From assembly GCA_031763025.1 (NCBI GenBank), contig JASSKH010000032.1:1133001-1197000 (forward strand): 64,000 nt of DNA, read 5' to 3'. A program made the position numbers and the translations under genes. The notes under the pieces are model-generated. The model worked only from the letters and a program-made list of their open reading frames with translations, was not told the origin of the DNA and searched no databases. The stretch's first letter is position 1. Each line of letters starts with the position of its first letter. The stretch comes from Macrocystis pyrifera. Its lineage: Eukaryota > Sar > Phaeophyceae > Laminariales > Laminariaceae. This document shows, piece after piece, positions 3,495 to 63,624 of the stretch.

Positions 3495-4150
3495 CGCGAC
3501 CGATCGTTGGCCTCATCGCTCGTCATCGAAGCAGCACGGCCAGGCAAAATAGGTATATCGAGACAGCATATCAATAACAATGCAGTTTTCGTGCCTGTTT
3601 GCGGCCTTTTTTCATGCATGGCTATAGAAGTAAGTGTCAATGCAACGCCGACATGTTCCGACTCGCGTGGGCATGCTACAAGCGGTTCAAGCGGGAGCTG
3701 AAATGTACGATAATACTGCTGCATGTAGCCATGTGGGTCGCGCTGTTCATCAGGCTAAAACGGCCGAGGTGTTGGAGACCCTGCTGAACGGGCGGTGGGT
3801 GTGGGTGTGACGTGGGCTTTCAGCCAGGGGTGCTCTCCTCGCAGGCACACCACCATCTTGTTCTCCTCCTTGTGCGAATAATTGCCCTTCCAGCGCCGAC
3901 AACGCACTTGAAACGCACCGATCAGCTCATTCATAATACCGTACGCCAACACCCTCCAAAGAAGGTACAACGCGAGAGAGCATCGAGACGAACATCCGCA
4001 AATACCTAATTGATGATGTCCTCATCCCTTTGTGGGGGGCGTACAGCGGACGAACGGTGAGCGACTGACCCGTCGAAAAATGTGTGGGACGATTGCTTGT
4101 GGGGAAAGTCCGGGACCAGGCCGACCAGAAAAAAAAACTGTAGGCCAAAT
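3495..4150 (+). mobile_element. Second remnant of the same LINE C-terminal family
   Basis: On the plus strand one reads SLVIEAARPGK (about 3515), FRLAWACYKRFKRELKC (about 3655), an HHHLVLLLVRIIALP segment (about 3848), KRTDQLIHN (about 3912) and VQRTNGERLTRRKMCGTIAC with GESPGPGRPEKK (about 4040-4135). The order is the same as in the minus-strand copy at 1.5-2.6 kb. Stops and frame shifts interrupt it throughout. The two remnants are arranged head to head. Confidence 0.7.
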
Positions 4151-4211
4151 ATGTACTACAAATACAACAGTAGCGGGTTCGCCAAAAAAAAAGGTACTTG
4201 GTGTGCCTTTT

Positions 4212-4436
4212 TCTGATCGCGGAAAGCGCGAGAGCGCAAGTTGTGGTTAAATTCGATGGAAATCGACGAGCAGTGTGGGAATGCCGAATGAACTCTGTGC
4301 GTCACAAAAAACGCGGGCAAGTGTATATCGGGTAGGGGGGGGAAGACGAGGAAAGGCGCCTACTACATACAGCTGTGACCGCGGTTCATGTCCAAAAGGC
4401 TGGAACGTAAAAATCGTTTGAAAAAAGGGAAAAGTA
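4212..4436 (+). mobile_element. tRNA-derived SINE family 1, head missing
   Basis: It starts at GCGGAAAGCGCGAGAGCG, followed by AAATCGACGAGCAGTG, GGAATGCCGAA, a GGGGGGGAAGACG block, CTGTGACCGCGG and an A-rich 3' end. These landmarks occur in the same order in the fuller copies at 5593-5942 and 30424-30714. The tRNA-like head is absent. Confidence 0.7.
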
Positions 4437-4718
4437 GTAGCTGAGAGGCACGCAGGCGACCTCAAGGTTTTTTCGAGCTTCTGAGGGATCCATGGAAAGC
4501 TCGCCTTTGTTGTTCGGGGAGGAAGGATAGAGTAGACATTAATAGATAAGTAGATAGATGGCGTTGTGGCCGATACACGGCGGTTAAAAAGGGTAACAAG
4601 TGCTACCGGGGGGTCGTCGGGGCGGCGGGTCGTTTCATGATGCTATGGCATGATGGCGATATAATATGATGAGGCGGCGGAGAGGAGCTACTACTACTGC
4701 AGCAGCTATGCGCTAACA

Positions 4719-4791
4719 GGGGGGGGAAGGGGAAGGGGGGGGGGGGGGGGGGGGGGAGGGGGGGGGAGAGGGGGGGGGGGGGGGGGGGGGG
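4719..4791. repeat. G-rich tract (first of two)
   Basis: About 73 bp of almost pure G with a few A interruptions, ending at GCGTACTC. It is the tail of the adjacent minus-strand LINE 3' fragment. Confidence 0.9.
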
Positions 4792-4860
4792 CGTACTCAT
4801 TTGTTGCTTGCCTTAGTCACTTGACCATTGACCACACATCCCTTTCGAGATGGAGCAGAT
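4792..4860 (-). mobile_element. LINE 3'-terminal fragment
   Basis: GCGTACTCATTTGTTGCTTG and CATTGACCAC are the reverse complement of the last bases of the LINE ORF and its 3' end at 19095-19150 (ends ACAAATGAGTACGCC). Only about 65 bp remain, so the copy is severely 5'-truncated. Confidence 0.75.
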
Positions 4861-5182
<322 letters not shown>

Positions 5183-5592
5183 CGTACTGATACCACTGCG
5201 GTCGGTGTAAAGAGCAAAGGAAAGGGCTGATCGTATACGGTACAACACCAGTTCGATTAGGAAAGTTGGACCTGTCTGTGTCTGATATATTTGATGCCCG
5301 ACCCTACAGTAACTCCAGTGGAACGGAACTTTGTTCTGTTTGTTGTACTGCTGTTTGCTGTTGTTTTGCCGTTTTTCTCTGGGGGGGCGCGACAGCAGCA
5401 AACAATGTGCATACGAAGTACTGCAGCCATTAATAGTAGTACATACATACCTGGTATAGTATTGACATTTTTTCTTGTTTGACACCGCTGTGAACAAGTG
5501 TAGGAAGAAGACGGCAGCTGGTAGTGTGGTATAAGGAACCGGTCTTGATTACGTATAAAGTTTATTTAGCAGAAGCAATAAACAACCAGATT
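5183..5592. other. Intergenic, no gene recognised
   Basis: After the G tract there is unique-looking sequence with a GTACATACATACCTGG phrase near 5440. Short ORFs lack motifs. Confidence 0.4.
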
Positions 5593-5942: not shown

Positions 5943-7728
5943 TTTATGTTGGTGTTGCTATGTTGAGTACTCAAGCCTTGATTGAGTACTTATACTATCA
6001 TGTTGTATGATGTGTTTGGTCTGGCATATTGCTTCCCTACGGGTACTCGTATTTGTTTTTTGTTTCGATTTTCCTCTCCGTTCGCCTCCGACGTGTCTTC
6101 TTTCTCTCTGCGTGTGGTTTCGTCCATGCTGCGGTTGGTTCTATTTTTTTATTTTTTTAGTATTGTTCTTGCGTGTTTCTATGGCACCAATCTCGTTTCA
6201 GCCTTGATCTTAACAAATAATGATACCAGCAGGTAGTGCTTCTTGTTCGTTTGTTTGTTTGTTCGGTTGTTTGTTCCCGTTTTCTTGTTCGGCTTGTTTT
6301 TGGTGTGATCATTCGTACCCGGTACATTGTTGATGATCAGTTGTGGCACTTTATTTTTTGCTTGCTTCGGAACCTTCGCGATGATATGACCACACAGTTT
6401 TGTGACCAAAGAGCTTTCGTACTTCCCCGGGAAGAAGAGTCAGGACGGGACACCTGGGCGTGCTCATGTCGTCGAAACAAAACAAAACGCTCACACAACA
6501 CGCACACCGATGATGAGATCACAATTAATACACAACATACATACATGCATATACACTACTTCGAAGTATACTACTTAGTTAAGTGTTCACCGGGATGCAT
6601 AGTCCCCTTTTTCCTTCTCGCATCTTTCCCCTTGCACGTCCCTTTTGGCTCATGCTCGGGGTAAGTATGTGTGTCTGAGCTTTGGCTTCCCATTTTATTT
6701 ATTTATTTGGGATTCTTCTCCTTTTCTTTTTCTTTTTCTTGTTCTTTTTCGGTTTGGTTTTTTCGTTGCTTCTCTTTCTTTATGGTGGATTTTGGTTGCT
6801 GGCGTATGTATGTATGTTGTGTCGGCCGCACCTAATGCAAAGGCATGGTATTACGTAGGCTATTAATGTATTACGGTGTGTTTATCTCTGTGTCGTAGTC
6901 TGTGACCACAGAGCTCGTATCTTTCTAGGGTGAAGAATCAGCACGGACACTGGGCTTGCTGGATGTCGACGAGTAGAAGAACGGTTTAATGTGAAGAACA
7001 CACACGCACACACACTCGCCGTAATCTACGTGCAACCTCCGGAAAATATATTTATGTTATGTTTGTATTATTAGATATTTCCTAAACACACACAGCAACA
7101 AACACACCACAACGTTCCTGCGACCGTTCAACTTCCCCTCCACTGACTCCCTCAAAAGCACGGGCGGGTGGGTGGGAGAGCTCAAACTAATAATCTGTAT
7201 CACACCTCTTACTCTTGTAGCTCTGACTCTTCTTGACAGCATGCTTAGCTCGCTGGTCAGCAACTACGAACTGACTAGGCAAGGTGTGTCTCAAGGCTAT
7301 CCAATTGCTACGTATACTATTAACCGCGTTGATCTGATTGGTTGCCCAAACTTCTTCCGTACGTGTAAAACTCGCATTTTCTCGTGCCTCGATAATACTA
7401 TGCGTAGACGCATCCACTCCTTGGTGTCCGCAGCTTTACAAAATATTTTGGCTTTCTCATACCTGGTGTACGGACTGCTGTACTTCCTGCATGATGGGGC
7501 CTTCAAAACCCGTAGTAGTACAAGCGATCGAAGTATCACACAGCTTGCAAGAATGATGAGTTTCGGCGAATTTTTGGAATTTTTCGATCTCACAGCTGTT
7601 ACAAGTTGTTGTTAAACGGTTATTAATAGTTTGTCGTTGGTGGTTTTAATGTTATTTAAGTTATTACCGCCGGTGATGATATGGTCAATACTGTTGAATA
7701 CTAATTACAGTATTAATACCGTGCAGTA
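5943..7728. other. Intergenic with a dispersed ~115-bp repeat
   Basis: Mostly T-rich sequence. At 6893-7012 lies a repeat (TGTGACCACAGAGCTCGTAT, GGACACTGG, TGCTGGATGTCGACG, ACGGTTTAATGTGAAGAACA) that recurs at 20748-20862. A weaker partial copy is at 6385-6475. The ORF at 7172-7615 (147 codons) has no recognisable domain, and the opposite strand is equally open. I do not call it a gene. Confidence 0.5.
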
Positions 7729-7833
7729 TTACGGGGGTCCATAGTTAACAGGACCACATATTGTTACTAAAAATACCTAAATATATAGGTTTTTATGTAT
7801 GCCATAGGTCCTGTTAACTATAGACCCCCGTAA
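7729..7833 (-). repeat. 105-bp MITE with TA duplication
   Basis: The terminal inverted repeat TTACGGGGGTCCATAGTTAA is at both ends, flanked by TA on each side (7727-7728 and 7834-7835). The internal phrase GGTTTTTATGTAT gives the orientation (called minus). The element is non-coding. Confidence 0.9.
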
Positions 7834-9037
7834 TAGTAACATTCACTACAAAACGTTTATGTAATCTACTACCATTATTATTGCGCTGCCGATTCCCAGT
7901 CAGTGTAGTACTCCTATTAATTAGAGTCTGGTATCACCTGAAAATCGAGAGGGGTATATGATGATATCTGTATGTATATACCCCCCAAAAAAACACGACC
8001 AGTCATGAAAAAAAGTTGATATTTCTTAGTCATGTCCGTATCACGGGAATCATATATATATTGTGCAATATCATATATAATGTTAAACCTGGTATATACA
8101 TCATGTACCTTGTATATGGTGATATGTCACTTCTTATCTGCTGTATATATATCGTGCTCTCGTGCGCTATTATCATCACCTATCTATATATATATACGTA
8201 TGTACGTCACCGCCGTGCCACATCGATCGATACTTGTTCGTGGTTGGGGCCTGTGCCACACTGATGGTAAATCACGGTACTTGGCGATCTGTGCCCGCTA
8301 CGTACTACCCGGTACACCAAATGCATGAATGATGAAACAGCAACCCCTTCTCTACGAGGATATATTGCATGTAGTAGATGTGTGGCGACGCTTGACGATG
8401 TCGAAGGCGACTGCTGTAGCTTTGGCTCGCTTGTGGCCGCAAGCGATGGCGGCGCGTTCGACTCGCTCATCGCTGATCAAACCCGCATGGCAGGAAGACA
8501 CCAGCGGGCACAGACCCCTGGTACGTCCCCTTGCTTGTGTATGCGTCGCACTTCGTACCCGCACTCGTACATACGTACCAGGTACATACCTGGTATACTG
8601 CACGTATTTTACGCCCATAATGTACGCCCGAAAGATGCAAGATATATCGTCAAGACAGCAAGTGGTCATAATATTATGCCACATACCAGGTATCGGATAG
8701 CTATATCACGTATTTCACCTCATATAGGCCGATATATCATCGTATATCACCTTATATAGGCCGATATATCCCTTCATAGCGGATGTATATATCATATACC
8801 AAATATCATGTCATCTTTACGAAGTCACATCGTGCCGAACGCCCTATATATCGCACGTTCCGGCGCAAAAAAAAAAAAGCATGACTAAGTACTATATGGA
8901 AATATCATATCGTATAGGGGGTATATATATATATATATGGTAGCCCTATACTGACACCAGGCTCTACTATTAATAGTACTGCAAAATAACAGCATCGTGC
9001 CAGCAGACGACGAGATCAAAGTGTGGTGTTCAGGTCT
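7834..9037. other. AT-rich intergenic with short tandem repeats
   Basis: TATA-rich runs and a roughly 36-bp tandem at about 8700-8775 (CATATAGGCCGATATATC twice). Several TACCAGGTA/TACCTGGTA copies occur near 8575-8695. No coding region is supported. Confidence 0.5.
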
Positions 9038-9396: not shown

Positions 9397-9595
9397 TTAA
9401 TAGTCCGTTGGGATATTATTGGTCAACCCAATTGCAATCTGAGCCTCATAACAGTGGCCTGCTGCAAAATGGTCTCGATGATCGCCGTACACTATCCATG
9501 CCTAATAGACCGTCGAGGGTGTCCAGTTTCTAAGCACCAGCAGTACAGCTTACTATAAGTTAGGGGTCGCCAGAAAGCGCGAAGGAGCCAAGGAG

Positions 9596-13910: not shown

Positions 13911-15116
13911 CGTGGAAGTGCGGTGAGCTTAAGCTATGTTTTTACCAATCGCCGAAAAAAAAAAACAAAAAAAAAACCTGATCTCTGAAGCCCCCCAAAA
14001 GTGTTTCGAAGGTCTGCCTTTTACGTTCGATCCAATAGGACCTCGATTTTAGGGGGGTCTCGTCCGCCACGCTAAGGCTAATAAAAAAAGTCACTTCCAG
14101 CGAAATTTCCCCCTGCAAACGAAAAGACGGTAAACGAATGATCTGACCCGGAATATAATAACCATTTGGTCTCTGATATGAATATCAAAAGAGCTTATGT
14201 TTCCGGTCAGAGTGGTGTATTGATATTAGCATTGAAGGCGTTCTACGGTAGCGGTATAGTAACGCCTCCGCATAAATAAATAGTATATACATCGGGTACA
14301 TTTGGTGAGGCTCCTGACTTCACTGCAGTATATAGAAGCTCTACTTTCGCACTGATTTTGAGAATAGCTAAAAGTGCAACCCGACGAGCAGTCCCAAAGA
14401 CTATCTGTGTAGTAAAACACCATTATGAATATTCCAACGATATACAGCAGTGGGCTAAGAAATCCGGCCAGCCAGAAGTACACTGGCCAAACCGTGCTAG
14501 CCCTGTCGTATCTCGCTTCAGCTGTCAGTAATACGTGCCAGTTTACGATATCATATACTGCTTTACCTGACGCACACTACAGTTGTAGTATTGCATCCAT
14601 GCGTTCGATAAATGACCCAACCTGAGACCATAAGAAATCGAGTAGACAAAAAAGGAACAAAAACGAGAGCTTCGCGAAACTATGGACCGCAAGGAACTCG
14701 GAAAGCATACGGTACCTACGTAGTGAAATGCCTCGAGCGCTTTGGTGTACTGCCAGAGGGAGTATATACATATGTACACATATATATATATATTGATAGT
14801 ATGGGGGGTCTACGTGGTTGTTGGGCCCTACTGAGATGACAAAAGTCAATGAGAGTTACGCAAGGAATTCGAAAAGAAAACGTGAGCGCAAGAAACAAAA
14901 TACAACAGATTGCGAAAAAACAGAAAGCAGGAACACGGACCGCCGACGTAAGTGTAACACATACTCGATGAGGCGGGTAAGCAAGCGAAAAAAATCAGAG
15001 CAACCCCACGCTAGCCGCAGATGACGGCCACGTGAGGCACAGCACATATCACGACGATGCTGGCCAGAGCGAGGTTTCAGTCGCTTCATTGGGAGGACGC
15101 CCCCTGATGGCCTCTC
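13911..15116. other. Intergenic, no gene recognised
   Basis: It includes A-runs near 13953-13977 and an AT microsatellite near 14782. Short ORFs on both strands have no motifs. The right end (15075-15105) carries GCGAGGTTTCAGTCGCTT, which recurs at about 19724 just before another C-rich tract. Confidence 0.4.
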
Positions 15117-15354
15117 CTCGCCGCGTGCCACCCCACCTCGCCCTCACCCCCCATCTCCGCTTTTCTTTCTCCCCCCTGCCCCCCTCTGTCCATCCCATTC
15201 TCCCACCCTCCAACCCTTCTCCCCTGCGACCCCCTGATCCCACTCCTACTCCACCTCCAATCTCCCCACTCCCCCCCCCCCCCCCTCTCCCCTCTATGCT
15301 CCAACCTGACCCCTCCCCCTATTCCCTCCAGTCCTCACCGCCCCCTTTATATTA
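15117..15354. repeat. C-rich polypyrimidine tract
   Basis: About 230 bp of C with scattered T and A on the plus strand, ending in ATATTATATGCCAGG. It follows GAGGACGCCCCC and so resembles the tail of a third element type. Confidence 0.85.
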
Positions 15355-15860
15355 TATGCCAGGTTTAGGTTGGGTTGGAGTCGGTTGACAGCGACACTGC
15401 AAAACATGTCGCTCTCTACTTGAGCTAGGCAGCAGGGTACCGTTTTTTGTTTTCATGGCGGTCGGTCACAGCTAGCGATCGAGGTATAGATATTCTTGTG
15501 GGGGGTGGAACACCCTCACTCCGCACAAAGGAAATTAGTCGTATGGTAGTGTTTATGGTAAGACACTCACGAGGCAGTTACGTAGCACCCCCATTGCTGT
15601 CTCTGGAGGTGGCTACACCGGGAAATATATTTAATCTTTGAAGCTGTCATCCATGTGCATATCCGCTCCACAAGCAGTTTTTGGTAGGATGCAGCTCACC
15701 CTTCATGCGACTTGCGAACACCTCATGACCCTTTGCGCTTGGTGTACGCAATGTCTGCCTGGTCGATGGAAACCCGACGTCTTCCGTCCCGGCATTGTAG
15801 GGATGCGATGGCCTACGGTCATACGACTACGGTTATGCATGATACCGAGTACACTCCCTC
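15355..15860 (+). mobile_element. Non-coding ~500-bp retroelement ending in a C tail
   Basis: The full unit is defined by comparison with 37420-37945 (reverse complement). Shared landmarks are GGTTGGAGTCGGTTG, ACTGCAAAACATG, CTACTTGAGCTA, GGGTACCG, GTGTTTATGGTAAG, CCATTGCTGTCTCTGGAG, GATGCAGCTCACCCTTCATG, CAATGTCTGCCTGGTCG, CCGTCCCGGCATTGTAGGGA and a final GAGTACACTCCC running into C-rich DNA. There is no ORF. The 3' end matches the LINE 3' end (GAGTAC(G/A)CC plus C run), so it may be mobilised by that LINE. Confidence 0.75.
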
Positions 15861-16261
15861 CCCCCCTTTCCCCCTCCCCCCCGCCCCCCCCCCCCCTACC
15901 GCCTAAATCATCTTCCGCCATCCCGCCAATCCCCCCCCCCCCGTCCCCTCGGCTCCGTCTCCCCCCCCCCTCCCGCCCCCGCTCTCCCCCTCGCCCCACC
16001 CCCCCCTCTCACACTCTCCGCGCCCCTCCCCGCCTCCACCCCCTCCCTCCTCCACATCCTCCCCCTTCCCCTCGCTCCCCCCGTCCCTCTCACCTATCTC
16101 TCCCCCCACCTCCCCCTTCCCCCTGGCTCTCCCGCCTGCCTCTCTCCTGCCCCCTTAGCCTTCCCCGGCCCCTAACCGCCCCCCCCCCCGGGTCTCTCGC
16201 TCCCCCCTCTTGGCTTGCCTCTCTCTCCTTCCCCCCCCCCCATGCCCCCCCCCCCCCCCCG
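15861..16261. repeat. 400-bp C-rich tail
   Basis: Runs of C up to 16 broken by T, G and A. It lies exactly between the C-tailed element and the truncated LINE. Open frames across it are compositional. Confidence 0.9.
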
Positions 16262-19143
16262 CATGTATGCGCAGCGGACATAGGAACTACGGATCACTGC
16301 CTAATATGGACAGAGAGTCAACGGACGAAAGTTATCAAACATAGAAGAGGTAAGAAATTGTATCGATGGAGAATAGATAAACTAGAAGTAAAAGAGAAAC
16401 GGGAAGAGTTCCAAGAAGAGATGGCCAAAAATTCAGAAAAAAATTCCGAGGTGTTGGAAAGAATAGGTACAACAAGGAACGATATAGAAAGGGATGATGC
16501 AGGAGCTAGGATAATAGAAGGATGGGAGCAGTTGGTCAAGACCACAGCAAGTAAAGTAATAGGGAAGAAGTTGATAGTATGCAACAGAGCGGTAAAATGG
16601 TGGGATGAAGAAGTGAAAGAGGCTATAAGAGCAAGGAGAAAGGCACACGCAAGGTATACATCGAGTAAAACTCCGGCAGGGCGGGAGGAATATGCTATAG
16701 CTAGAAAGAAAGTAAAAGAGATGGTAGAGAAGAAGAAGAAAGGGATATGGAAAGACGTAGTAAATAAAACGAATGAAGACTTTGAGGGCGGAATGAAGCA
16801 GATGTGGGTAGGGATAAAAAGGATACTTGGCAAACAAGCAGGAGAGGCAGACACGGGAATAGCTACTCTAAAAGCACAGAACGGTAAATGGTTAGTAGTT
16901 CGAAGGGGAAAAGGGAGGTACTAGTAGAGCATTACCGAAAACTAGGAACACCCACAGCCAACGAAACGTTCGATGCAGAATTCGAGAAGGAAATCAACGC
17001 GTGGGCAGAGGTGAACGTAGATACATCAGAAAGGGAAGACAGTGGTTCGGGAGGGTTACAGAGAGAGTTCACAAGGGAAGAAGTAAAGAAGTGTGTAGCT
17101 ACACTTAAGAATAGAAAGGCAGCAGGGGCAGACCAAATAGTGAATGAATTTATGAAGTACGGGGGAGAAGGAATGCTTACCATGATTGTTATGTTGTATA
17201 ACTGGATATGGAAAAAACGAGTACGCACCTAGGAGGTGGAGAGAAGGAGTAGTAGTAAATTTATTCAAGAAAGGAGATAAGGCTGACCCGGGGAACTACA
17301 GAGGGATAACGCTACTAAGCACAGTAGGCAAAACATTTTGTAAGATTTTGAACGATAGAATGGGAACGATAATGGAGAAGGAAGACAAAATAAGCGAAGG
17401 ACAAGCAGGGTTTAGGCCAAGCCGTAGCTGCGTAGACCATGTGTACACCTTAGGTAAGATTATTCAAGGTAGGAAAGACGCGGGACTAACAACGTACTGT
17501 TTCTTTCTAGATGTGCAGAAAGCCTACGACGCAGTATGGAGAAATAGATTGTGGAAAAAACTGTGGGAAATAGGAATCAGAGGAAAGATGTGGAGAATGA
17601 TGAAAAAGATGACGGAATGTGCGAGAAGTGCTGTGATGCTGGACGGGGAAATATCGAAGTATGTTGATATTTTACAAGGTGTTGCACAGGGATGTACGTT
17701 GTCACCTAACTTATTCAAGATATATATTAACGACCTGATAGTAGCAGTCGAGGGAGCAAGGCAGGGAGTCACGGTAGGGGAAGATACGGTGTCGGGATTG
17801 ATGTTTGCGGATGACTTCGTGGGGATATCAGAAACACCCGAAGGATTGCAGAAACCAATAGAGAAGGCGCTAGAATACACCAGGAAATGGAGGGTGACGG
17901 CGAACGTCAAGAAATGCGCAGTAGTTGTTTGCAACGAAGATAAGGTAAACCCGGTAAATTTCAGTTGGAAGTGGGGAGAAGATGAATTGCCGATCGTAGA
18001 CCAGTATACATACCTTGGCGTAGAGATCTCAAAAGACTGCTCTTGGGATACACATATAGCAAAAGTAATAGGAAAGGGTAAGGCACAAGTAAGCAAGATG
18101 GATGCGATCCTAACAGACCCGAACCTTGACACTAGGATTAAGAGATGTATATTGATGAATGTGATAGTACCAAAGCTAGAATATGCAGGAGAAGTATGGG
18201 AAGGGAACGCGAAACTCGTAAAACAGTTGGAAACAGTACAAATGACAGCAGCTAAAAAAATCCTAAGATGCTCAAGTACGACCAGTAATACAGTATTAAG
18301 AGCAGAACTGGGAATGCGCCCACTCAAGACAAATAGAGACATGAAAAAGTTGAACTGGCAATATAAAGTAAGGAACATGCCAAAAAAGAGGTTGCCAGCC
18401 ATAGTTGACAGAGCTGTATGGGAGAAAGTAACAAAAGGGCGAGCTGGAATAAGGTGGGATGGCGTAGTTGAGAAAGTATGGAAGGATCTAGGGGGAAACC
18501 AAGAGATGATGTCCGCCGGGAAATTTGGGAGGTACAAGGCAGAAGTAGAAGAAAGGACAGAAAGAAGGGAAAGGCTAGCGCTAAGAAACAAGGTGGAATC
18601 GGAAAAAAAACACTTGGAGATATACGGGGGATTGAGGGAAGGAATAGGAATGAAAACGTATATGCATGGCCCAATGGACTTCGCGAAAACGCTGAAACTG
18701 CGCTTTCGTGTAGGGGACCTGGACCTGCCAGAATGAAGAAAGAGGTACACCAGTAGCCGGGAAGAAGAGGAAGTAGACGCACAGATGTGCCCGTGTGGCA
18801 AAGCAATAGAGAGTAGAACTCACATAGTAGGAGAATGTGAAATATACAAGGAGGAACGGGATGTGTTGGAAGAGGAGATGAGGAAAATAGACGAATGTGA
18901 CATGGAGGAGTTTGATACAATGAATAGCAGCGAGAAAACGATCGCTATCCTAGGAGATAGATGGTGGCCACAGGAGGTCAAACAGGAAGGGGATAAGATT
19001 AGCAAAAAGTTTCTATGTAATTTATGGAAACAACGTAATGAGCGCCCAATTGTTGGAGGTGTCTCTACTAGGAGTAGGAACGGTGCTCCGTCTCAAAAGG
19101 GATTCGTGGTCAATGGTCAAATGACTAAGGCAAGCAACAAATG
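16262..19143 (+). mobile_element. 5'-truncated LINE (non-LTR retrotransposon), disrupted ORF2
   Basis: The left end reads DIGTTDHCLIW, the last motif of an APE-type endonuclease, then a lysine-rich linker. Reverse-transcriptase blocks follow: VVNLFKKGDKADPGNYRGIT, SEGQAGFRPSRS, FFLDVQKAYDAVW (motif A, Asp about 17510), GVAQGCTLSPNLFKIYINDL (motif B), LMFADDFVGI (motif C, FADD at 17803-17814) and YTYLGVEIS. The C-terminus has CPCGKAIESRTHIVGEC (a Cys-Cys-His-Cys knuckle) and ends GQMTKASNK-stop at 19141-19143. Three lesions break it: a frame change near 16890, another near 17210 at an A6 run, and a TGA at 18734-18736 with the frame open on both sides. The endonuclease body is missing. A C-rich tail follows directly. 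Confidence 0.92.
17186..18736 (+). pseudogene. LINE reverse transcriptase domain, longest intact frame
   Basis: This 516-codon frame holds all RT palm motifs and most of the thumb and C-terminal region (EYAGEVWEGNAKLVKQLETV, LGMRPLKTNRDM). It stops at a TGA, and the following residues continue RKRYTSSREEEE in the same frame into the Cys-rich knuckle, so a single substitution separates it from the C-terminus. The first methionine is not a genuine start, because the frame enters from upstream through a shift. Confidence 0.9.
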
Positions 19144-19308
19144 AGTACGCCCGCCCCCCCCCCCCTACCTGCGCCTCCCCCCTCCCCCTCCTCCTGCTCC
19201 GCTCTCCGCCCCATCCCCCCCCCCCCTCCTCCCCTCCTCCCCCCTGCCCGGACCATCTCCCCCCCGACCCCCTCTCCCCCTCTTCCCAAGTCATTCGACA
19301 CTGTTGTT
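19144..19308. repeat. C-rich 3' tail of the LINE
   Basis: GAGTACGCCCGCCCCCCC starts at the LINE stop codon region and continues as C with T, G and A interruptions for about 145 bp. No poly(A) is present. Confidence 0.85.
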
Positions 19309-19515
19309 CATATGCAAGAAATACACGCAAAGGGCCGAAGCACGCCTCACAAGCGGTTTTTGATGGGATACAACTAATCCTCAATGCAACTCGCGTTTTG
19401 TGCAAGCAATGCATGTCTTGTCAGTGAAAACCCGACATGCTCCGTCCCGGCATTTTAGATATGTGTGGGGTCTATGGTCGTACGACTACCGCTACGGCGA
19501 TGCATGACATTAGTA
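19309..19515 (+). mobile_element. C-tailed non-coding element, partial copy
   Basis: It contains GCCTCACAAGCGGTTTTTGA, TGCAAGCAATGCATG, GTGAAAACCCGACATGCTCC, CGTACGACTACCG and ends ATTAGTACGCCCCCCGCC. It is the same family as 15355-15860, 5'-truncated. Confidence 0.75.
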
Positions 19516-19890
19516 CGCCCCCCGCCTCGCCCCCCCTACAATCCCTCACCCTCTCACCCTCTTCTTCCCTCCCCCAACCCACTCCCCCCCCGCCCCCTTG
19601 CACCTCCTCTTCCGCTCGCTTCCCTTCTTCCCTCCCGCTTCCGCCCCCCCATCTCCTTCTCTCTCTCCCCCCACCTCTCTTCATCCTTCCCCCCTACCCC
19701 AAGCCACCCCCTCTCCTTCCTCCCGCGAGGTTTCCGTCGCTTGGTTGTCAGGACGGTGCCCCCCCCCCCCCCCCCCCCCCCATCCCACCCGCCGCCCAAC
19801 CCCAACCCCATCCCATCCCGCCCTCCCCCCACGTCCCCCCCCCCCCCCCCCCCCCCCTCCTCCACCTCCTCCCCCCCCCTTCCCTTCTTC
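19516..19890. repeat. C-rich tracts with a short insert
   Basis: C/T-rich DNA to 19720, then GCGAGGTTTCCGTCGCTTGG and AGGACGGTGCC (19724-19759), the phrase also seen at 15070-15100, then C runs of about 24 and 23. This may be a third C-tailed element type reduced to its last 35 bp. Confidence 0.7.
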
Positions 19891-20747
19891 TTCAAATCGA
19901 TCTGGGTGCGACGTGGCCAATGCTTCGTCAGGCGTGCTTGAGGCGTACTTGGAGCGCTCTTAGACAGATATAATCGGACTCAACGGCCGGCGATGACAGT
20001 AGTAGTGGTATCTCGATCGCGACCTCGTGCAGAATATATCATTACAGTCAGCGTGGGATGGCTCCACACCGTACGTACACGCATCTTGGAGCCTAGTGCT
20101 GTAGGATAGTCAAACAAAACGTTGTGATAGAACAATGTCGGGCTACAAAAGCAGCAGCACCACTCATGTAGATGTACACAGCCACTCATGTAGTAGTACG
20201 CAGCAGTAATGTTGCCGTACACATATAATATAACGCAATATTTTCTCGTGAGAAACCGTACCAGTTTCTGTTCTGTGCGCATGCCCGCTCGACACGTACC
20301 AGGCACGTATTAATAGTACTAACACCATCACCGTCATCGATACCACGATCGCACGACATTATAAATAATGCGAGTATACGCTCTACAGTATTATTACCAG
20401 CTAATATGATAGCAAAAACTGATGTTTTTTTTCAGCCGTCCACGCACAGAGAGACAAAGCTTACATACTTGTACGGGCATGTTGCTGCAGAGCATACCTG
20501 GTATTCATATACTTCAAGTAACGAAGACAGTTTTCTTCTTTCCTTTTCTTTTTTCATTTTTCTCTTTCGATTTTGTATTTTTCTTTGTTCTTGTTTTTCT
20601 TTGTTTGCTTTTGTTTTCTCTCTTTCACAGAATAAGTATGTCGTGCCTGTCTTACCCACTATGACGGCATGGCATTGCATTAAATATACTGATGTGCTCA
20701 CTACATACGTAACGATCAATGTAGTATCTCTATGCGGCGTAGTTTTG
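19891..20747. other. Intergenic, no gene recognised
   Basis: 20528-20635 is T-rich with TTTTC runs, as at 6060-6300. Small ORFs have no motifs. Confidence 0.4.
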
Positions 20748-20862: not shown

Positions 20863-21047
20863 AGTTACGAAGTACAGCATACCCTGTATATACCAGGTAC
20901 GCATAGAAAACCATGGATAGCACGGACCATACGCGCGCCGTCACCCTAGAAGGGAAAAACTATCGTAAACAAGATAAAACCAAAATGACCACTACGTACG
21001 ATTATCCCCCTTGCGGCATCGGGGTTTGCCTTGCTTGGTAGCGACTA

Positions 21048-21154
21048 TCACGGGGGGCCATAGTAAATAGGAGCTACTGCTGTGCACATAAAAACCAAAA
21101 TATTTAGAATACGTTTGCTAACAATATTTGGTCCTGTTTACTATGTTCACCCGT
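21048..21154 (+). repeat. Diverged MITE copy
   Basis: It begins TCACGGGGGGCCATAGTAAA, has CATAAAAACC internally and ends in a decayed TTTACTATGTTCACCCGTA. It is weaker than the 21304 copy 150 bp away. Confidence 0.6.
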
Positions 21155-21303
21155 ATTAGCACAACGATGACTTCACAGCTATAATAGTAGTGTTGTCAAC
21201 CGTCTACTACGTGCACAGCTTGAGCGCCCAGCAGCATGTATGGGTTAGGGGTATAGGATCGATCATGCTGAGCCCGTGCCATACGACTCCTTGCATCTAA
21301 CTA

Positions 21304-21408
21304 TTACGGGGGTCCATAGTTAACAGGACCTATGGTAAACATAAAAACCTATATATTTACCTAATTTTACTAACAAAATTTGGTCCCGTTAACTACGGAC
21401 CCCCGCAA
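21304..21408 (+). repeat. 105-bp MITE
   Basis: TTACGGGGGTCCATAGTTAA at the left and the complementary arm with one C for T at the right, flanked by TA on both sides. The internal CATAAAAACCTATATATTTA defines the plus orientation. Confidence 0.9.
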
Positions 21409-21520
21409 TATTTAAACTCGGGACACCAATCAGTACCAGCAGGTATGTATCATCGAATAATCTTGCAACAGGCCGTTTTGCTGCAATCGCCACTATTATT
21501 ATATTTTCGTTAGTTTCCCC

Positions 21521-21855: not shown

Positions 21856-23010
21856 TCCCTGCTCCATCCATGCTTTCGTTGATTGAGTTAAGTCCTTCGG
21901 GAGTGAGCTTTCATGAATTGAGTTTAATAATTTGGGAGCGACACTGCTATCACCCAGGTAGACAAGATGATCTGAGCCGCGGCCGGAGATCAGATTGGAG
22001 AACGAAGGTCGCGGCGAAGGCATCCGTCTCAGATTCGTAGCAAGGGGGGAGAGATGATGCATGCGTACGTACGTACGTACGTACGTACGTGCTTGGAGTC
22101 GAGACCCATGAGTTTGTTTCGGTTTTGCTTACGTAGTATGGCAACCCCCCCCCCCCCCCAACCCGCGCATGCGTGTATGTACGGAAGTATGCAATACTAT
22201 ATTTGTTTGCTTGGCTTTCTCATTTTGTCTGGTGAGTCGAAAAATGTTTGATGTTTCTGTGTGTCCACTGGGTCATCATGTTCGTTCAGAAGTTGTAAGC
22301 TGGGAAAATTATAGTTGGCCGACCTACGATACCTGGTAGTTGGAAGTAACTGAAATGTTTTGCCCCCCCCCCCCCCCCCCCCCCCCCCGGCAATGCAGTG
22401 CTAGTGTTTGGATAATACTTGTTATTGATGTTACTGGGTTATATATGGTCAAGTACGTAGGGAGGAGCTATAAGAAGATTGGCACTACTAGTCTGTTGTT
22501 CATGCGCGTACCTAACTATTGCTTCTTTCTGCTTTACTTTTTAGTGGTATGCAATCATTGCGGGTTTTTTAGTGGTTTGTTTAAAAGGAAGACATAGCTT
22601 TGGTAAGCTATAATACCGTCGAGAGATTCGGGTAGTGTCATACTGACTTGAAGGAGCAAGATATTCTGGACTTAATTGAGTTTTTGAAATCGAAGGGCGA
22701 CGTCTACACAAGCGGGGAGGCGGTTGTGCTTGGGTAGTAGGTTTTGAGCTGATGGCCGTTTGAATATCGCGGACAGAGGTCCGTAGTTACGGCAGTTGTT
22801 GAGTGTCGCAAGCGTTCTACGATAGCGGTTCACCCTAATTTTTCTAATGCTCCTCACTTGACGTTAAGGAGCTCCGTGCCTCACCCGAAAACTGACTTCC
22901 GCACAAATCAAATTGCATTCCGATGAATAATCCCATGGCCCAAGTATACGAAAAGAGAAGTCATTTTTCGAAACAAGATTGGCATTCCGACGATTGTGGG
23001 CAATGTGCTA
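21856..23010. other. Sequence between the direct repeats
   Basis: It holds an ACGT microsatellite (about 22061-22090), C runs at 22146-22159 and 22363-22388, and no recognisable integrase, protease or polymerase motif. An LTR element is therefore not supported. Confidence 0.5.
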
Positions 23011-23115
23011 TTACGGGGGTCCATAGTTAACAGGACCTATGATGTACATAAAAACCTATATATTTGCCTATTTTTACTAAACAAAATTGGTCCCGTTAAC
23101 TATGGACCCCCGTAA
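23011..23115 (+). repeat. 105-bp MITE
   Basis: Both TTACGGGGGTCCATAGTTAA arms are intact, flanked by TA. The internal CATAAAAACCTATATATTTG matches the other plus copies. Confidence 0.92.
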
Positions 23116-23400
23116 TACCTGTATCGTAGAACGCGTCGTTGGGGAGACCGTTGAAGCTTACGCCAGTACAGCAGCACGGTGTAGAAATTTGCATTGAATT
23201 TGAGCGTTTGGATTTTGGATGAATTTGGTGTTTTCTAAGCAGGGAGGCAACTGTCTTACGGGTTTTGGATTTTCTGCGTTCGAATCGATAGCACTACTAC
23301 TTGTAGCGCCAAGACAACATCACCTATGTGTTGGATGATTGTAGACCGAGTGTGGAACGGCGTTGACACTATGATCACGACAGTGTGCCGCGAACAGGGA

Positions 23401-24025: not shown

Positions 24026-24130
24026 TTTCGGGGAGCCATAGTAAATAGGACCTACGGTACACTTAAAAAGCTATTTAATTCTCTATTTCTACTAACAATA
24101 TTTGGTCATATTTACTACGATCCCCCGTAA
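24026..24130 (+). repeat. Diverged MITE copy
   Basis: TTTCGGGGAGCCATAGTAAA at the left, TTTGGTCATATTTACTACGA then TCCCCCGTAA at the right. It has the same 105-bp length as the intact copies. Confidence 0.7.
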
Positions 24131-25100
24131 TATTGTTATAATTTGGTTTGCCATCTGACATTGTGTAGAGTGAGTGTCCTAAAACCAAAATGATAATGAT
24201 TCAACAAAACCCCTAGATATTATGGTACTGCTTTGAAGGGGGCTGAAAGCCCGGAAATTACCGTCTGATTGAGAACCGGGTACCTGGTGGCGGGTACCCA
24301 GAACCGTCGGAACCGGAATCGTCCCGGTCCAACTCACGGAACCGCGGGTATTTGCACCCCGGGTACCCGGGTACCCGTCAGTTGTGGTATACGGAGCCCT
24401 CAAGACTGGGGTATGGGTTGATTTATATATACACTGATGTGCCCATAGACTCTCGTCTTTCGCCCCTGTCTGTCGCGGAGGGATTTGTCGCTCTGCTGTA
24501 ATTAACTAAGTTGATTTTAGCTACGCTCGCGAGGTACGGCGGGGCACGGTTGCCTCTCTAGGAAGCGGAGCAACCCTAGCTGCACGATCAAGCCGACTGC
24601 CAGCGCGCGCGCCGCTGGTTTTGACCATTCGATCACATGGGCGTACGTTGCAACCTTGTGAAACATGATACCAGGCGATATAGGACCCACCGCATTTTTT
24701 GCGCGCTCGCGTGGACCTTCCGCGAAAAACGAGTAACAACATAAAAAAAACAGTCAATAAAATAACGACGCTCCTTTATTATTTTTCTTTGTTTCTGAAT
24801 GTGGGTTGTTGTCACATGGTTTAATTGATGCAAGCTAATAAGCTTAATATATTCGAAGGATTTCCCGATGACTTGACCAGCGAAATAATGGTAAGGGTGG
24901 AAAGAAAATGACACCGATGATTGATCGCTTATATTTCGGCTCCCCTCTCCCCACCTCTCCACTCGATCCCACACAGAATATCCTACATGCCTTCTGCCAT
25001 ATTTTTTCAGCATGGTTCATCGAGAGAGACGAAATGAAGTCTTGCCCTCCCACAGCCTTACCACGCTGCTGCTCACAGGCTAAAAAAAGGGGGAGTAAAC
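24131..25100. repeat. GGTACCC-rich repeat, left cluster, then unique sequence
   Basis: 24275-24385 is rich in GGGTACCC/GGGTACCCGG units mixed with GGAACCG. A partner cluster of the same composition is at 25105-25285. Between them I see no gene. Confidence 0.6.
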
Positions 25101-26510: not shown

Positions 26511-26554
26511 TGCACTACTACTACCACTACCACTAATACCAGTAATAACTATTA

Positions 26555-26658
26555 TTGCGGGGGGCCATAGTAAATAGGACCAAATATTGTAAGTAGATAT
26601 AGGCGAATATATTGGTTTTTGTGTGTACCGTAGGTCTATTTACAATGGTTCCTCGTAA
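26555..26658 (-). repeat. Diverged MITE copy
   Basis: TTGCGGGGGGCCATAGTAAA at the left. The internal GGTTTTTGTGTGTACCG gives the minus orientation, and the right arm decays to TGGTTCCTCGTAA. Flanked by TA. Confidence 0.75.
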
Positions 26659-27276
26659 TAATAAGTAATGATGGTGTACACAATTTATTTATTACACATG
26701 TGCCTTCACAATCCACATAGAGAGAGTAGAGTTTAAGAAATCATACTTCGAAGTATATAGTTTCGGGAACACCGATGCCTGATTTAAGTGCCACCTCGAG
26801 CCATATCAAATAACAGTTATTAATGGGCATCAAAGCAGCAGCAATAACAGCAGCAATAACAGCAGCAGCTCATCCCCGGAAGAATTACTCACATTTAGAA
26901 CCATACCATACTAAAACTCAACAACACTCAATCAATATTTGTAAAATGAAAAGGTTTCGACATCTTGCAACGCCATGTCATTCTCCCTCCTTGTTCGGGT
27001 GATTATTATTTTAATTGCCCTGCTGTTGACCCGGGCAGCATCCAGGGGATCCACTGGCCTATATCTTCGACAGGGGATTACTTGCACATAGAATACGCAC
27101 GCATGTTCGAACAGTCGAACTCACAGCTGACGTATTTCACAGTTTTATGAAAACTAACTCGTACTAAGACTACTACATACATCATCACTACTACATACTA
27201 CTGGTACTACGACTACTATTAATAATATTATGTTGTTATTGCTACTACTGTATCTTCATTATACAGTATATTAGTA
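26659..27276. other. Intergenic, no gene recognised
   Basis: A TACTTCGAAGTA palindrome near 26738, an AGCAGCAATAAC tandem near 26840 and TACTAC-rich DNA near 27160-27240. Confidence 0.4.
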
Positions 27277-27383
27277 TTACGGGGGTCTATAGTTAACAGG
27301 ACCTATGGCGTACATAAAAACCTATATATTGAGGTATATTTTTACTATCAATATTTGGTCCTGTTAACTATGGACCCCCGTAA
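27277..27383 (+). repeat. MITE, 107 bp
   Basis: TTACGGGGGTCTATAGTTAA and its complementary right arm, TA on both sides, internal CATAAAAACCTATATATTGA. Two extra bases compared with the 105-bp copies. Confidence 0.9.
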
Positions 27384-28735
27384 TAGTAGAACTACAACTA
27401 CACTGCTTTTACTTCTGCTGCGGTATTACAGACTGTAGAGGACACTCGATGTATTTGACACGTCGGACGAGGGGTTGAGTAGGTTCCAACAGCATTGCAG
27501 TCGTAGAGACTATTAAGGATGATACAGACTCGTAGTGCTCGGCGCGTCTGTTTTACGTTCGTTTTATTAATAGTTTGTTTAGAAACCCTTCGGAACTTGA
27601 ATATTCTGAATAAGGCACAGCAGCAGTACCACATCATGTTTTATGCCGGAATGACACATCACAGATCACACAAGGTCACAAACAACACACCACAACACAC
27701 TTGGTCATTGAACAACGAACGACAGATTGGAGATATCTTCGATGCACACCACTTTTAGCGCATACAAAAACATCAACATACATACGATAACCTGGTACCA
27801 ATGCTTACAAGTACTATTAATACTGGACCAGTACATAATACGTTACAATCCTATTGATAGTATTCATGATATGATGTACACATACGTACGTACCCATTTC
27901 AGTCAGACAGTTAGTCGTGCTCTCGGGTGTTTTTAAACGGATCAGCCGTGAGAGAGGGCTCAACAACGTAGGACTCGCACCCTACGAAGAGTTCTGTGAT
28001 TTATGATGTGCAACATACATGTACACGCCAGCAGGCAGCAGCAGCACACACAACGGTCAGTATTTCGATACGTTCGATTCATGTACAGTACTGGTACGTT
28101 AGATCGCACCACGGCATTATCATTCTGCTGGAATAACCTGCAAACAAAGTACCACAGCAGTATGACTGTTAACACCGGCATATGTACATTCAATGTGTAC
28201 GCTGTCATATTACAATGTACCAAGGCAAGCAGGCACGAGCCCCAGTAGGTGCTGCTGCTGTGGTGAGGGGGGAGAAGAGCCTGCTATAGTAAATACTAGG
28301 TATGTGGTCCCTAATCTGAGGGTAACGAGAACTATACTATTGATAGTAGCACTAGTAACAAATGCCATTGATCCTACTACAGCAGGGGGGGGGGGGAGAG
28401 AAAATAAGGTCGAAGATAATGAATGGTGGGGGGGGGGGCATGGCGTACATCTCGGTACCTGATATATACGGTTTTTAATGTTGTCAATATAGTTTTCTTA
28501 GGCATTAGACAGCGTGGACTAGTAGTAGTAGTAATAGTGTGCATCAACAACTAGCTGTAATATTTTGACATGCAGTTTGTTTTGTATCAACAGCTAGCTG
28601 TAATATTTTGGTGATAAAGCGGCTTGATCGTGGGCGAGATGACTTCGCTTGCGCTACGTACTACTGTACATAAATACACCCCGAGTGTCGGCTTCAAAGA
28701 TTCCCCACTTCATTGATTATTTCCGAGCAGTTAGA
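27384..28735. other. Intergenic, no gene recognised
   Basis: Small ORFs only. There is a 10-bp G run near 28386 and a second at about 28429. AACAGCTAGCTGTAATATTTTG-like phrases are repeated near 28545 and 28590. Confidence 0.4.
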
Positions 28736-34800: not shown

Positions 34801-37800
34801 AAGCAAAAACAACCGCAACAGGAACAAGAGCATCACCATACCGACAACGGTAACGATGGAAGCACGGCGGCAACTCACGCCGAACGCAGTCGGCATCGGC
34901 TGACCTTGCTTTGTGGCATGTCCAGAAGACGGTCCCTCTCCTCGTCCTCGAGGCCCATGATATCGAACGGTGTCTCAACCCCGGCACCTTCGCATCTCTG
35001 AAGCCGAAAAAAAATACACGCAGAGAACAAAACCCGAAACAAACAAGGACGAAAAAGGGACAGAACACCATCGATATATTCGCGATCGTAGGGGAAGAGG
35101 GTGGGTTCGGCTTAAAAGTGTCATTATAACAGGGGTGGGAGTGGGGGAGGGGTGCGGGCTGGGAGGGTAGCGTAGGCGTTCCAGTGTCTTAAAAGAAGGA
35201 GCGGAGCGTAACGCGGGTACGTGTATGTTTCAGTGATCAAGGCCGGAGCAATCGTGTATCGCCTGATTTTGATGGAGGTGGATGGTGAACATGTATCCAA
35301 TGCTATGGCCATGAAGCAAAGAATGATGCAGGGGATGAAGCAAGCAAGCACGACATCAAGCTCACACATGCACAAGCTTACAAGCAAGCGACCAACCCAG
35401 GCAACAAAGCGACCAAGCAAGCAAACAAGCAAGTGACCAACCCAGCAAGCAAGCGACCAAAACCGGCGCAAGTAAGCGATCAACCAAGCAGCGAAAAATA
35501 AAACAAGCAAAGCAGCTGGGTCCTCACCAGAATGACTTCAGGCGAGAAGTGTGGGATCTGGCGCAGGTAGCTGTCCCTGGCCCACACACCCTGCACGATC
35601 ATCTGAGACAGTTCCATGGCCTCTAGGGCAGGCTTGAGCCAACCATTGGAAGAGATCACGTCCACGACGGCTTGCAGCAGCCGCACCCCGTCCAGAAGGA
35701 CCACCTGAGACCGATAATAAATTGATTATATTGGTTCATTCATCTTATTGGTTAATTCATCTGATTGATTCATTTGACTACTGTATAATAGTTGGTCAAT
35801 ATAATTGGTTGATATGGTTTGATTGAAATGTTGGTTTATTCGATTGATAGAATGATCGATTGTTTGATGTAGCATCATTGATGTGTTGTTTTGATTGGTA
35901 GAAGTTGATTGATTTGATTTGGATAGTCTGGCTGATTGATTTGGCTCGCTGATTTTCGCTTTGACTGGTTTGGTTGATTGACTGATTGATGTGATACATT
36001 AATTTGCCGGATAAGTAAAATATCGGTGGAAAAGGCATATTCGCTTTGGGGCCAAACTATTCATGAAATAGATGTGTAATCCTCTTTGAGCGTAGTATGC
36101 TAGAGTGTAATCCTAAATGCAGTAGCAAAACCTTTTTCAATACCTGGAAGTCGTTTTTCAACCCATACAAAAAAGCAACCCCAATTCCCGAGACAAAAAA
36201 TTATAATGTCATCATGATTCACACGCCGGACAGATAACATCATGATCTAGATACTTCAGGGCAGACAGATAGATGGATCTCTGATCTGTAAGATTTGTAC
36301 GATCTAGCTCATGTTGCCGGGTGAGAGCCGTGGAATCTGCCTGATCTAGGAGATATTTCCTGGGTTAGTGATGCACAGACTGCACAATACTTAACAGCGG
36401 CAGGTCGGGATCTAGATGGCCAACTGTAGATAGATAGATCATGATATGTCCGTCATATGAACGTTTTACCTCTAGACTACAGTAACCCTATACACAAACG
36501 CAACCCCAACCCGTCGCAGTTTGGCGAACAATTGCTTCAAACTCGAGTGGGATCACATTCTGCAGAGGAGAAAAAAACGTCAACTCCTTCACCAATCTAC
36601 TATACCAGGTATTATTGAGCGGCACTATTTAGCCGAAACGAAAAGGGGTACATCGTGAACTCGTGACACCTTGCCGCACCTTTTGGTCCGCTCTTAAGTC
36701 CGTTGAGAGAGCCGTTCGGCTGAAGTGGCTCTGAAGCAAGACGTGGGCCTTCGCGTTCGTGTCGGAGAACTGCCACTCGTTCGGAAGCTTAGAAGAAATT
36801 GAGATGGCAGACAAGCACATTCACGGCAACAACACATCATGGGGGAAAAGGGGGGAAATAAAAAAACGAATCACAGAAATGAACACAAAAGGGAATGCAA
36901 AAATCACAAAAAGCACGAAAGAAGCACAAAAACAGCACAAAAGAGTGAAACAACAACCCGCAAATCTCAGAAACGTTGCACCTGGTACACAATAGCAACA
37001 CACAACTCCGAACATACACAAACAAAAAACAAAGTACTTCGAAGTACCACACAAAATATACAACAACAACAAAAAAAAAAAAAAAACTCAAATATACCTG
37101 GTGTGAAAACACACAACAGGCAGACAAGACAATTAAAAAAAAAAAAACACGACACACTCAAAAAAAGAAGGCAAGCAAAAAAGAAAATTCGTAGTACAGC
37201 CGGGGCAACAAAAAACATTCCAATACCGCCGGGCCACTGAACTTTCGCATTACAATCGCTGTCGCACCTTCTGGGGGAGGTGTTGCGCGATCATCTTGAG
37301 CGCTTTTTCTTCCTGTTGCCTCACCGGGAGTTCGTTGAACTCCGAGGCCGAAGCGACAATATCCAGCAAGCCCCTGCCACACATCGAACACGAAACGCCC
37401 ACAACAAACGTAGGAAAAGGAGGGGGGGGGGGGGTTCTTACGTTCATGCATGGCCGGCCTTAGTCGTACGACTATAGACCCTCGCCTCCCTACAATGCCG
37501 GGACGGAGCACGTCGGGTTTTCACCGACCAGGCAGACATTGCTTGCACCAAGCGCGGCGCCGTGAGGTGTCCGGCGAGTCGCATGAAGGGTGAGCTGCAT
37601 CGTACTAAGAACCGCTTGTGAGGCGCATTCGCATATGGATGACAGCTTCAATGAGTCAATTGAATCTCCGGCGTGGCCACTCCAGAGACAGCAATGGGAG
37701 TACTATGTAACTGCCTCTTGGGTGCCTTACCATAAACACTACCTGGTACGTGATACGACCATTCCCACTTGTGGGCAGTAAAGGTTGTTCACCTCGCATT

Positions 37801-63410: not shown

Positions 63411-63624
63411 ACAGAGGGGGAAGGGTACTCGATATCACATATGGCCGTAGTCGTACGACTATAGACCCTCGCCTCCCTACAATGCCGGGACGGAGCACGT
63501 CGAGTATTCACCGACCAGGCAGACATTGCTTGCGGTGAGCGCGAAGCGCCGTGAGGTGCTCGGCGAGTCGCATGAAGAGTGAGGTGCATTCTACTAGTAC
63601 CGCTTTTGAGGCGGGCTTTCTTGG

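Follow-up and report, generated by a model that had tools for sequence, protein, structure and literature searches.

The 64,000-nucleotide window of the giant kelp Macrocystis pyrifera that was analysed here (assembly GCA_031763025.1, contig JASSKH010000032.1, positions 1,133,001 to 1,197,000) carries on its forward strand, between 15109 and 19898, an array in which C-rich tracts alternate with copies of a short non-autonomous element and of a long interspersed nuclear element (LINE). The array opens with a C-rich tract (15109–15349, 60% C) followed by a full-length copy of the short element (15357–15853, approximately 500–520 bp), which was delimited by blastn family membership and alignment and ends in ...CGAGTACA. 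Alignments place the short-element version of a 3' module at 15779–15855. A second C-rich tract (15856–16266; 65% C over 15841–16277) separates the short element from a 5'-truncated LINE at 16268–19149, the start being approximate, in which open reading frames and a PF00078 match delineate the end of an endonuclease region, a reverse transcriptase and a C-terminal part, with frameshifts. The LINE version of the 3' module, TGCTCCGTC...GAGTACGCC, aligns at 19084–19151. Downstream are a C-rich tract (19150–19290; 65% C over 19140–19299), a 5'-truncated short-element copy that ends in TTAGTACG (19291–19516, start approximate, also from blastn family and alignment) and a last C-rich tract (19517–19898; 63% C over 19511–19898). 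The tracts of the array are 60–65% C with T as the next most common base, as decayed C runs would be. From its sequence, the array may be read as the product of serial insertion into C tracts.

A LINE and a short element with a common 3' end

The reverse transcriptase domain of the LINE spans 17189–18733 (PF00078 RVT_1, E = 2.5e-31) and also matched the R2 and L1 ORF2p chains. A total of 324 homologues were found at E ≤ 0.001 among 7,993 candidates scored, and among the best 120 of these 324 the ones named by organism were mostly from Ectocarpus. The window copy is frameshifted and so truncated at its 5' side that only the end of the endonuclease region is left (...TTDHCLIW...), a stretch containing what we take to be an SDH-like motif. 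An Ectocarpus relative, P0057, carries PF03372 (Exo_endo_phos, the apurinic/apyrimidinic or APE endonuclease) as well as PF00078. Judging from the Ectocarpus relatives and a study of Ectocarpus elements (PMC12477816), the kelp LINE is probably of the APE-endonuclease kind and a member of the RTE-X clade. The stop codon TGA (19142–19144) overlaps the terminal GAGTAC, leaving a 3' untranslated part of only a few bases. Another Ectocarpus protein, P0087, reads past the LINE end as ...ACKTEEYVPP, which is consistent with GAGTACGTACC at that point; from this sequence, conservation of the 3' word may extend beyond a single brown algal order. A LINE fragment with 89% identity over 37% of the query (P0056) lies on a 17-kb contig in a metagenome bin of the bacterium Parasphingorhabdus and is probably algal contamination of that bin. 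When the LINE protein was compared with a prokaryote collection, 34 pattern matches and no relative were returned; the DNA word had no match there.

The short element, from a consensus of 19 copies, is approximately 520 bp in length and has an internal T run of 23. A canonical short interspersed nuclear element (SINE) has A and B boxes for RNA polymerase III (Pol III) and a 5' part derived from a small RNA. The consensus gave no B-box match and, towards its 3' end, one weak match resembling an A box, and the window gave no Rfam match at the gathering threshold; the short element is not a canonical SINE.

The 3' module is 68 nt in the LINE (TGCTCCGTC...GAGTACGCC) and 76 nt in the short element (TGCTCCGTC...GAGTACACC), with 56 of the 68 LINE positions identical. 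These sequences were typed by hand to represent the form commonly met among the copies and are not computed consensuses. Their alignment scored 71, compared to a maximum of 29 in 5,000 shuffles in which only the short element was permuted, letter by letter; when the last 11 nt with the GAGTAC end were removed, the score was 56 against 21.5 in shuffles. By their sequence, the LINE and the ~500-bp element are a LINE/non-autonomous pair. The initial annotation of the window correctly gave the two a common 3' end and recognised that most of the junctions outside the LINE are ends of the ~500-bp element, but it described that element as unrelated to the LINE, and this does not hold since the common sequence is a module of 68–76 nt and not a word of 9 nt. 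The module is coding in the LINE (as in P0001) and is not known to be coding in the short element, which suggests recognition at the level of RNA. When folded alone as RNA, the module was no better than shuffles (z = -0.68 for the LINE, -0.14 for the short element) and for this reason no structural claim is made. A 97-nt stretch of the LINE gave z = -2.5, and a UGGUC....GACUA hairpin is present in the folds of both modules. In IMG/VR, GAGTACNCCCCCCCCC matched 26 stretches, which were taken as chance.

Within the window, the exact word GAGTACRCC occurs seven times, compared to 0.91 expected, and none of 100 shuffles reached seven. Six of these words lie at junctions between a retroelement and a C tract (4790, 19143, 45838, 50306, 50573 and 57572), while the seventh, at 61660, is not accompanied by a C tract and appears to be a chance match. 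Variant ends are present at 15850 (GAGTACACTCCC), 19508 (TTAGTACGCC), 57549 (GAGTACAACT) and 63426 (GAGTACCCTT), more weakly at 9590 (GAGATACACC), and at 5183 (CAGTACGCC), where the upstream sequence was assigned to neither element. The roughly twelve junctions reported earlier are thus borne out as six exact and six variant ends, and the four LINE ends among them (4792, 19142, 45838 and 57569) had been identified correctly. The longest tract, reported as 322 bp, is there at approximately 4861–5182 in the form of three runs of 82, 162 and 76. Homopolymer lengths are uncertain because the assembly was made with Canu from PacBio Sequel II reads; passages describing it give 35 scaffolds and 188 contigs (PMC10498591).

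The association extends to the genome as a whole (537,376,219 bases in 223 contigs). GAGTACRCC followed by seven further Cs occurs 11,680 times (5,808 + 5,872), compared to 15 (10 + 5) for the reversed word. Twenty LINE ends were picked by a 28-letter word that stops short of the tail and occurs 2,589 times in the genome; the next 40 nt contain a run of four or more Cs in all 20 and of seven or more in 19. As the initial annotation had anticipated, C tracts follow genomic copies of both the LINE and the ~500-bp element.

C runs upstream, within duplications and at an empty site

The 5' side of the insertions was considered using 131 3' ends that were gathered by body similarity from the window and from fetched loci. 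Of these, 11 were set aside for ambiguous starts, 11 for lying close to the edge of a locus and 15 as redundant, which left 94 copies, 30 from the LINE and 64 from the short element. In the 45 nt at the 5' junction, a C run of at least 5 is present in 75/94 copies and a G run of at least 5 in one; among random 45-mers from 160 kb of sequence (loci L009–L024), 4.7% have such a C run and 5.8% such a G run. Many loci (L001–L008 and L025–L084) had been picked by their 3' C run, while the 27 copies from the window and L009–L024 were not picked by tail. In the 60 nt upstream of these 27 copies, a C run of at least 5 occurs in 22 and a G run of at least 5 in none. The 5' word of the short element, TGGGTTGGGTTGGCGTCGGTTGGC, is found 888 + 925 times in the genome. 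Flanks were counted for the reverse strand only, the forward C count (6,298) being inflated by overlapping starts; CCCCC lies within 30 nt upstream at 826 of 925 words and GGGGG at two. Nine of the 20 fetched LINE ends have their 5' end inside the 360-base stretch that was fetched, and reading by eye showed four or more consecutive Cs upstream of each of the nine. The 5' run directly abuts the element in 15/94 copies, lies within 3 nt in 27/94, and reaches 57 within the 60 nt considered. Most insertions thus lie in one type of sequence, as expected of a target-specific non-LTR (non-long terminal repeat) element.

Truncation at the 5' side is frequent, with 69/94 copies being other than full-length short elements and all 30 LINE copies among these 69. 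Truncated LINE copies often start at one point, TGCTCCGTC, where homology with the short element begins (13/30; 6/9 by eye). This point corresponds to positions 2805–2811 of the LINE reference (window 19082–19088) and was seen at window positions 4857 and 45778 and in L090–L093, L097 and L098. The copies in question resemble a mini-element of 66–68 nt, which could come about if the reverse transcriptase meets a barrier there or if the RNA is processed. Both window examples are short: a 67-nt copy at 45778–45844 (+) which starts near the module boundary and is flanked by CCCCCCACACTACCATA on the 5' side and CCCCCTCCCCGCACATCACCATA on the 3' side, and a 66-nt copy at 4792–4857 (-) between long C/G tracts (4704–4791 and ~4861–5182). 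Further short-element copies lie on the reverse strand. One is full-length (37417–37939, from the blastn family) with C runs on either side, and two others, identified by blastn family and end word, end in GAGTACACC (50565–50793) and GAGTACCC (63416–63614). At 57549–57697 (-), a LINE 3' end is followed by CCC, an ~18-nt end of a 5'-truncated short element, and a long C run.

A clean target-site duplication in the window belongs to a 5'-truncated short-element copy at 50308–50499 (-). From flank comparison, a perfect 19-nt duplication, CCCCCCCCACCCCGCGTCC, lies on both sides. The 5' copy (50500–50518) holds a C run, and the 3' copy (50287–50305) comes after GAGTACA and two further C. Other duplications were found at L103 (C run + TTCCACGT), L097 (CCCCCCCTCCCCGCGG), L024 (C run + TGTCTGT), L049 (C run + GCCCCAACT) and, with two mismatches, L018. 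Over 103 copies, made up of the 94 and the nine LINE ends above, duplications that start with a C run reach a score of at least 5 in 7 copies compared to 0.55 expected, and at least 7 in 5 copies compared to 0.12. The expectation is from mismatched pairs of 5' and 3' flanks, the test used C-run-anchored suffixes and was the third version tried, and one row, L091, could hardly score due to a wrong start index. Another anchored test, stricter than the local-alignment test described next, gave 7 compared to 2.6 expected at a score of at least 4. A looser local-alignment test was not decisive: the observed mean of 10.6 is within the permutation range (maximum 11.3), and 32/94 copies reach a score of 12 compared to 16.2 expected, from a null that is inflated by nested repeats. 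The C tracts lie inside the readable duplications; the arrangement that had been named as damaging to the earlier proposal, tracts outside the duplications, was not encountered. Together with 5' truncation, target-site duplications in a minority of copies are traits of LINE insertion.

A paralogous empty site is provided by locus L022, which contains on its reverse strand an uninterrupted repeat, GAACTCTG-C16-TTCCCCCTTCCCCGCCATTCCCTGCACGCC, with TTCCCCCTTCCCCGCC on the 3' side of the C16. In L093, the same repeat holds a LINE copy in the arrangement GAACTCTG-C11-TCT-[LINE]-C run-GCCCCGCTCTTCCCCCTCCCCCGCCATTCCCTGCACGCC. Uninterrupted copies of the repeat with exact flanks and 5–35 nt between the flank words number 572 in the genome (280 + 292), and CCCCC is directly 3' of CTCTG in 487 of them (233 + 254). 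This separate repeat, near position 1023 of L022 (-) and in L093, has an internal C tract and is a ready-made target for both elements. When the fetched loci were searched systematically for empty sites, most of the matches in the portion seen were nested copies or loci matching themselves. At L097, an older copy of the short element has a LINE copy within its C run, and the continuation of that run, CCCCCCCTCCCCGCGG, has been duplicated.

With both strands counted, the 160 kb of loci L009–L024 contain 114 C runs of at least 7, of which 30 adjoin a detected copy of either element, and 32 of at least 14, of which 17 do. The elements cannot be shown to be the makers of all long tracts. A minisatellite-like array at L019 (-), 4064–4570, has a C run approximately every 145 bp; C runs thus occur apart from both elements.

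Proposed insertion into C tracts and the alternatives

The initial annotation had proposed that retrotransposition makes a poly(C) tail. In that form the proposal is not supported by the same-strand 5' runs (75/94, 22/27 and 826/925 in the three samples), the duplications, and the C16 of the empty site. We are instead largely confident that both elements insert mostly into pre-existing C tracts by target-primed reverse transcription and that the 3' run is mainly duplicated target. The C strand would be the sense strand of the insertions, and the 3' module of 68–76 nt ending in GAGTAC(G/A) is presumed to be the recognition site for the LINE reverse transcriptase. The endonuclease would nick the G strand of a C:G tract, either inside the tract or at its margin, and the freed 3' end, a short G run, may then prime reverse transcription by pairing with the RNA, whose 3' end is C-rich. 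A second nick, inside the tract or approximately 5–12 nt past it, would generate the duplication of C run and short adjoining sequence that is found in a minority of copies, and the copies themselves are frequently truncated at the 5' side. On this reading the 3' C run would be mainly duplicated target, perhaps lengthened by slippage; extra C from slippage or from a short templated C end is possible. Each insertion would leave two C runs open to the next element, and arrays such as that at 15.1–19.9 kb may have been built by serial insertion.

Several observations weigh against insertion into C tracts. No C run of at least 5 lies within 60 nt on the 5' side in 18/94 copies (for example, L004 at 2070 and L017 at 4335), and 99/925 short-element 5' words are without CCCCC within 30 nt. 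A readable duplication is confined to a minority (7/103 at a score of at least 5) and none scores 8; in many copies the run abuts the element and would hide any duplication confined to it. Evidence from an empty site comes from a single pair of loci, which are paralogous and not allelic. The LINE's own endonuclease was not recovered and its clade is inferred through relatives. In addition, 84 of the 114 C runs of at least 7 and 15 of the 32 of at least 14 have no detected element beside them, which leaves many tracts unoccupied, and the homopolymer lengths derive from noisy long reads. Lastly, the 3' run is the longer in 8 of the 22 copies with a 5' run that were not picked by tail. This count also favors the alternative that the elements add a 3' poly(C) tail, whether templated by RNA, by slippage or without a template, as do the longer 3' run at L103 (13 vs 8 on the 5' side) and the presence of C runs after 20/20 LINE ends that were not selected by tail. 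The tandem 3' ends at L102 (GAGTACGTACG) and L024 (GAGTACACCAGTACACC) suggest slippage at initiation; together with a subfamily with GAGTACATCTCTCCTATCGAGTACACC, such repeated ends look, from their sequence, like slippage or jumping as reverse transcription starts. However, a 3' tail leaves unexplained the same-strand 5' run at 826/925 words, the duplications led by a C run, and the C16 of the uninterrupted repeat in L022. Tails made by retrotransposition should also leave the 3' run longer than its 5' counterpart, yet the 5' run exceeds the 3' run in 14/22 copies; the 5' value is here at least 5 by definition, a bias towards the 5' side. A 3' tail as the main origin of the tracts is, on balance, improbable.

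The end of complementary DNA (cDNA) can be extended without a template by some reverse transcriptases. The 5' C run might then come from non-templated G added to the cDNA end during integration, with the 3' run as the tail, and the 15/94 copies in which the run directly abuts the 5' end would suit such a process. Yet at L097, L103, L049, L050 and window 50308–50499, the 5' run is separated from the element by other letters that recur past the 3' run, as duplicated target would give; 5' runs reach 57 in 60 nt, and the empty site already has its run. We regard this origin as very unlikely. Even less credence is given to the C tracts being artefacts of assembling noisy long reads, an idea that finds some footing in the PacBio Sequel II/Canu origin of the assembly and in the run of 162 in one tract. 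An artefact could alter lengths but not create an association of this kind, in which the strand of the tract follows that of the element in two families and at thousands of sites. In P0079, a relative from another record, MSTPSPPPSP comes after the LINE end, which is what a C-rich continuation would encode.

A broader proposition builds on insertion into pre-existing tracts: that homopolymeric C:G tracts are the specific target of the LINE and its partner, that the G strand primes, that the elements multiply their own landing sites, each insertion duplicating or lengthening a tract able to receive another copy, and that they would thereby be a main source of the long C tracts of this kelp genome. 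This is favored with some reserve.

Elsewhere in the window an ~110-bp repeat is present in approximately 11 copies, and several of them also match themselves in reverse complement, in the manner of a palindromic MITE (miniature inverted-repeat transposable element). The copies are located at 7727–7835, 21046–21158, 21301–21410, 23009–23117, 24026–24132, 26553–26660, 27275–27385, 42120–42228, 53213–53321, 55566–55674 and 58593–58702. The assembly also includes six unplaced contigs (C25–C30) of exactly 125,001 bases each, an equality of size that suggests artificial cutting in assembly.

Known systems and significance

Among non-LTR elements of the APE type, Waldo, Kibi and Koshi of the R1 clade target repeats of di- to tetranucleotides. 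To our knowledge, no microsatellite-targeting non-LTR element aims at a C homopolymer together with a non-autonomous partner. Mammalian L1 and Alu work in a similar way, with a LINE that mobilises a shorter partner and duplications whose first bases are a homopolymer matching the RNA 3' end. The kelp pair differs in using C:G instead of A:T and in having a common 3' module instead of poly(A) alone.

The closest description is from Ectocarpus, where passages on RTEX-N1_Ec32 report a non-autonomous family of ~600 bp with more than 6,000 copies, a 3' end in common with the RTE-X LINEs RTEX-1_Ec32 and RTEX-2_Ec32, and a 5' part whose origin could not be determined (PMC12477816). Like the kelp pair, these are an abundant LINE and short partner of a brown alga with a common 3' end and no recognised 5' origin; the kelp pair is very likely their counterpart, the match being one of description rather than of sequence. 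The main text of that study, as distinct from its figures and supplements, makes no mention of poly-C or a G-tract. In passages of a review, LINE and SINE ends are given as poly(A), TAA, TGTAA or poly(T), and those of plant RTE elements as (TTG)n or (TTGATG)n (PMC3747384). The SINE/LINE pairs with stringent recognition that it describes are alike in that the non-autonomous element carries the LINE 3' end as the presumed recognition site, whereas the kelp repeat is (C)n, lies on both sides, and accompanies a consensus with no Pol III B box. Simple-repeat targets, by which genes are spared, are also described for Togen, which inserts in (TG)n, and for some HERO families that target microsatellites; these differ in being on the restriction-like-endonuclease side (passages in PMC4640811).

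Among the best-ranked results of literature searches, no LINE with a C homopolymer as its target or tail was found in print; in one study that mentions it, poly-C is a feature of a DNA transposon end. Simple-repeat targets are known for non-LTR elements, and a C homopolymer would be a new one. The insertions may be the origin of part of the long C/G tracts of the kelp genome, where 17 of the 32 runs of at least 14 adjoin an element. With thousands of copies at one type of site, the LINE and its partner would also provide a natural test of how target-primed reverse transcription matches a target to the 3' end of an RNA, the same question that is posed by L1 and poly(A)/T.

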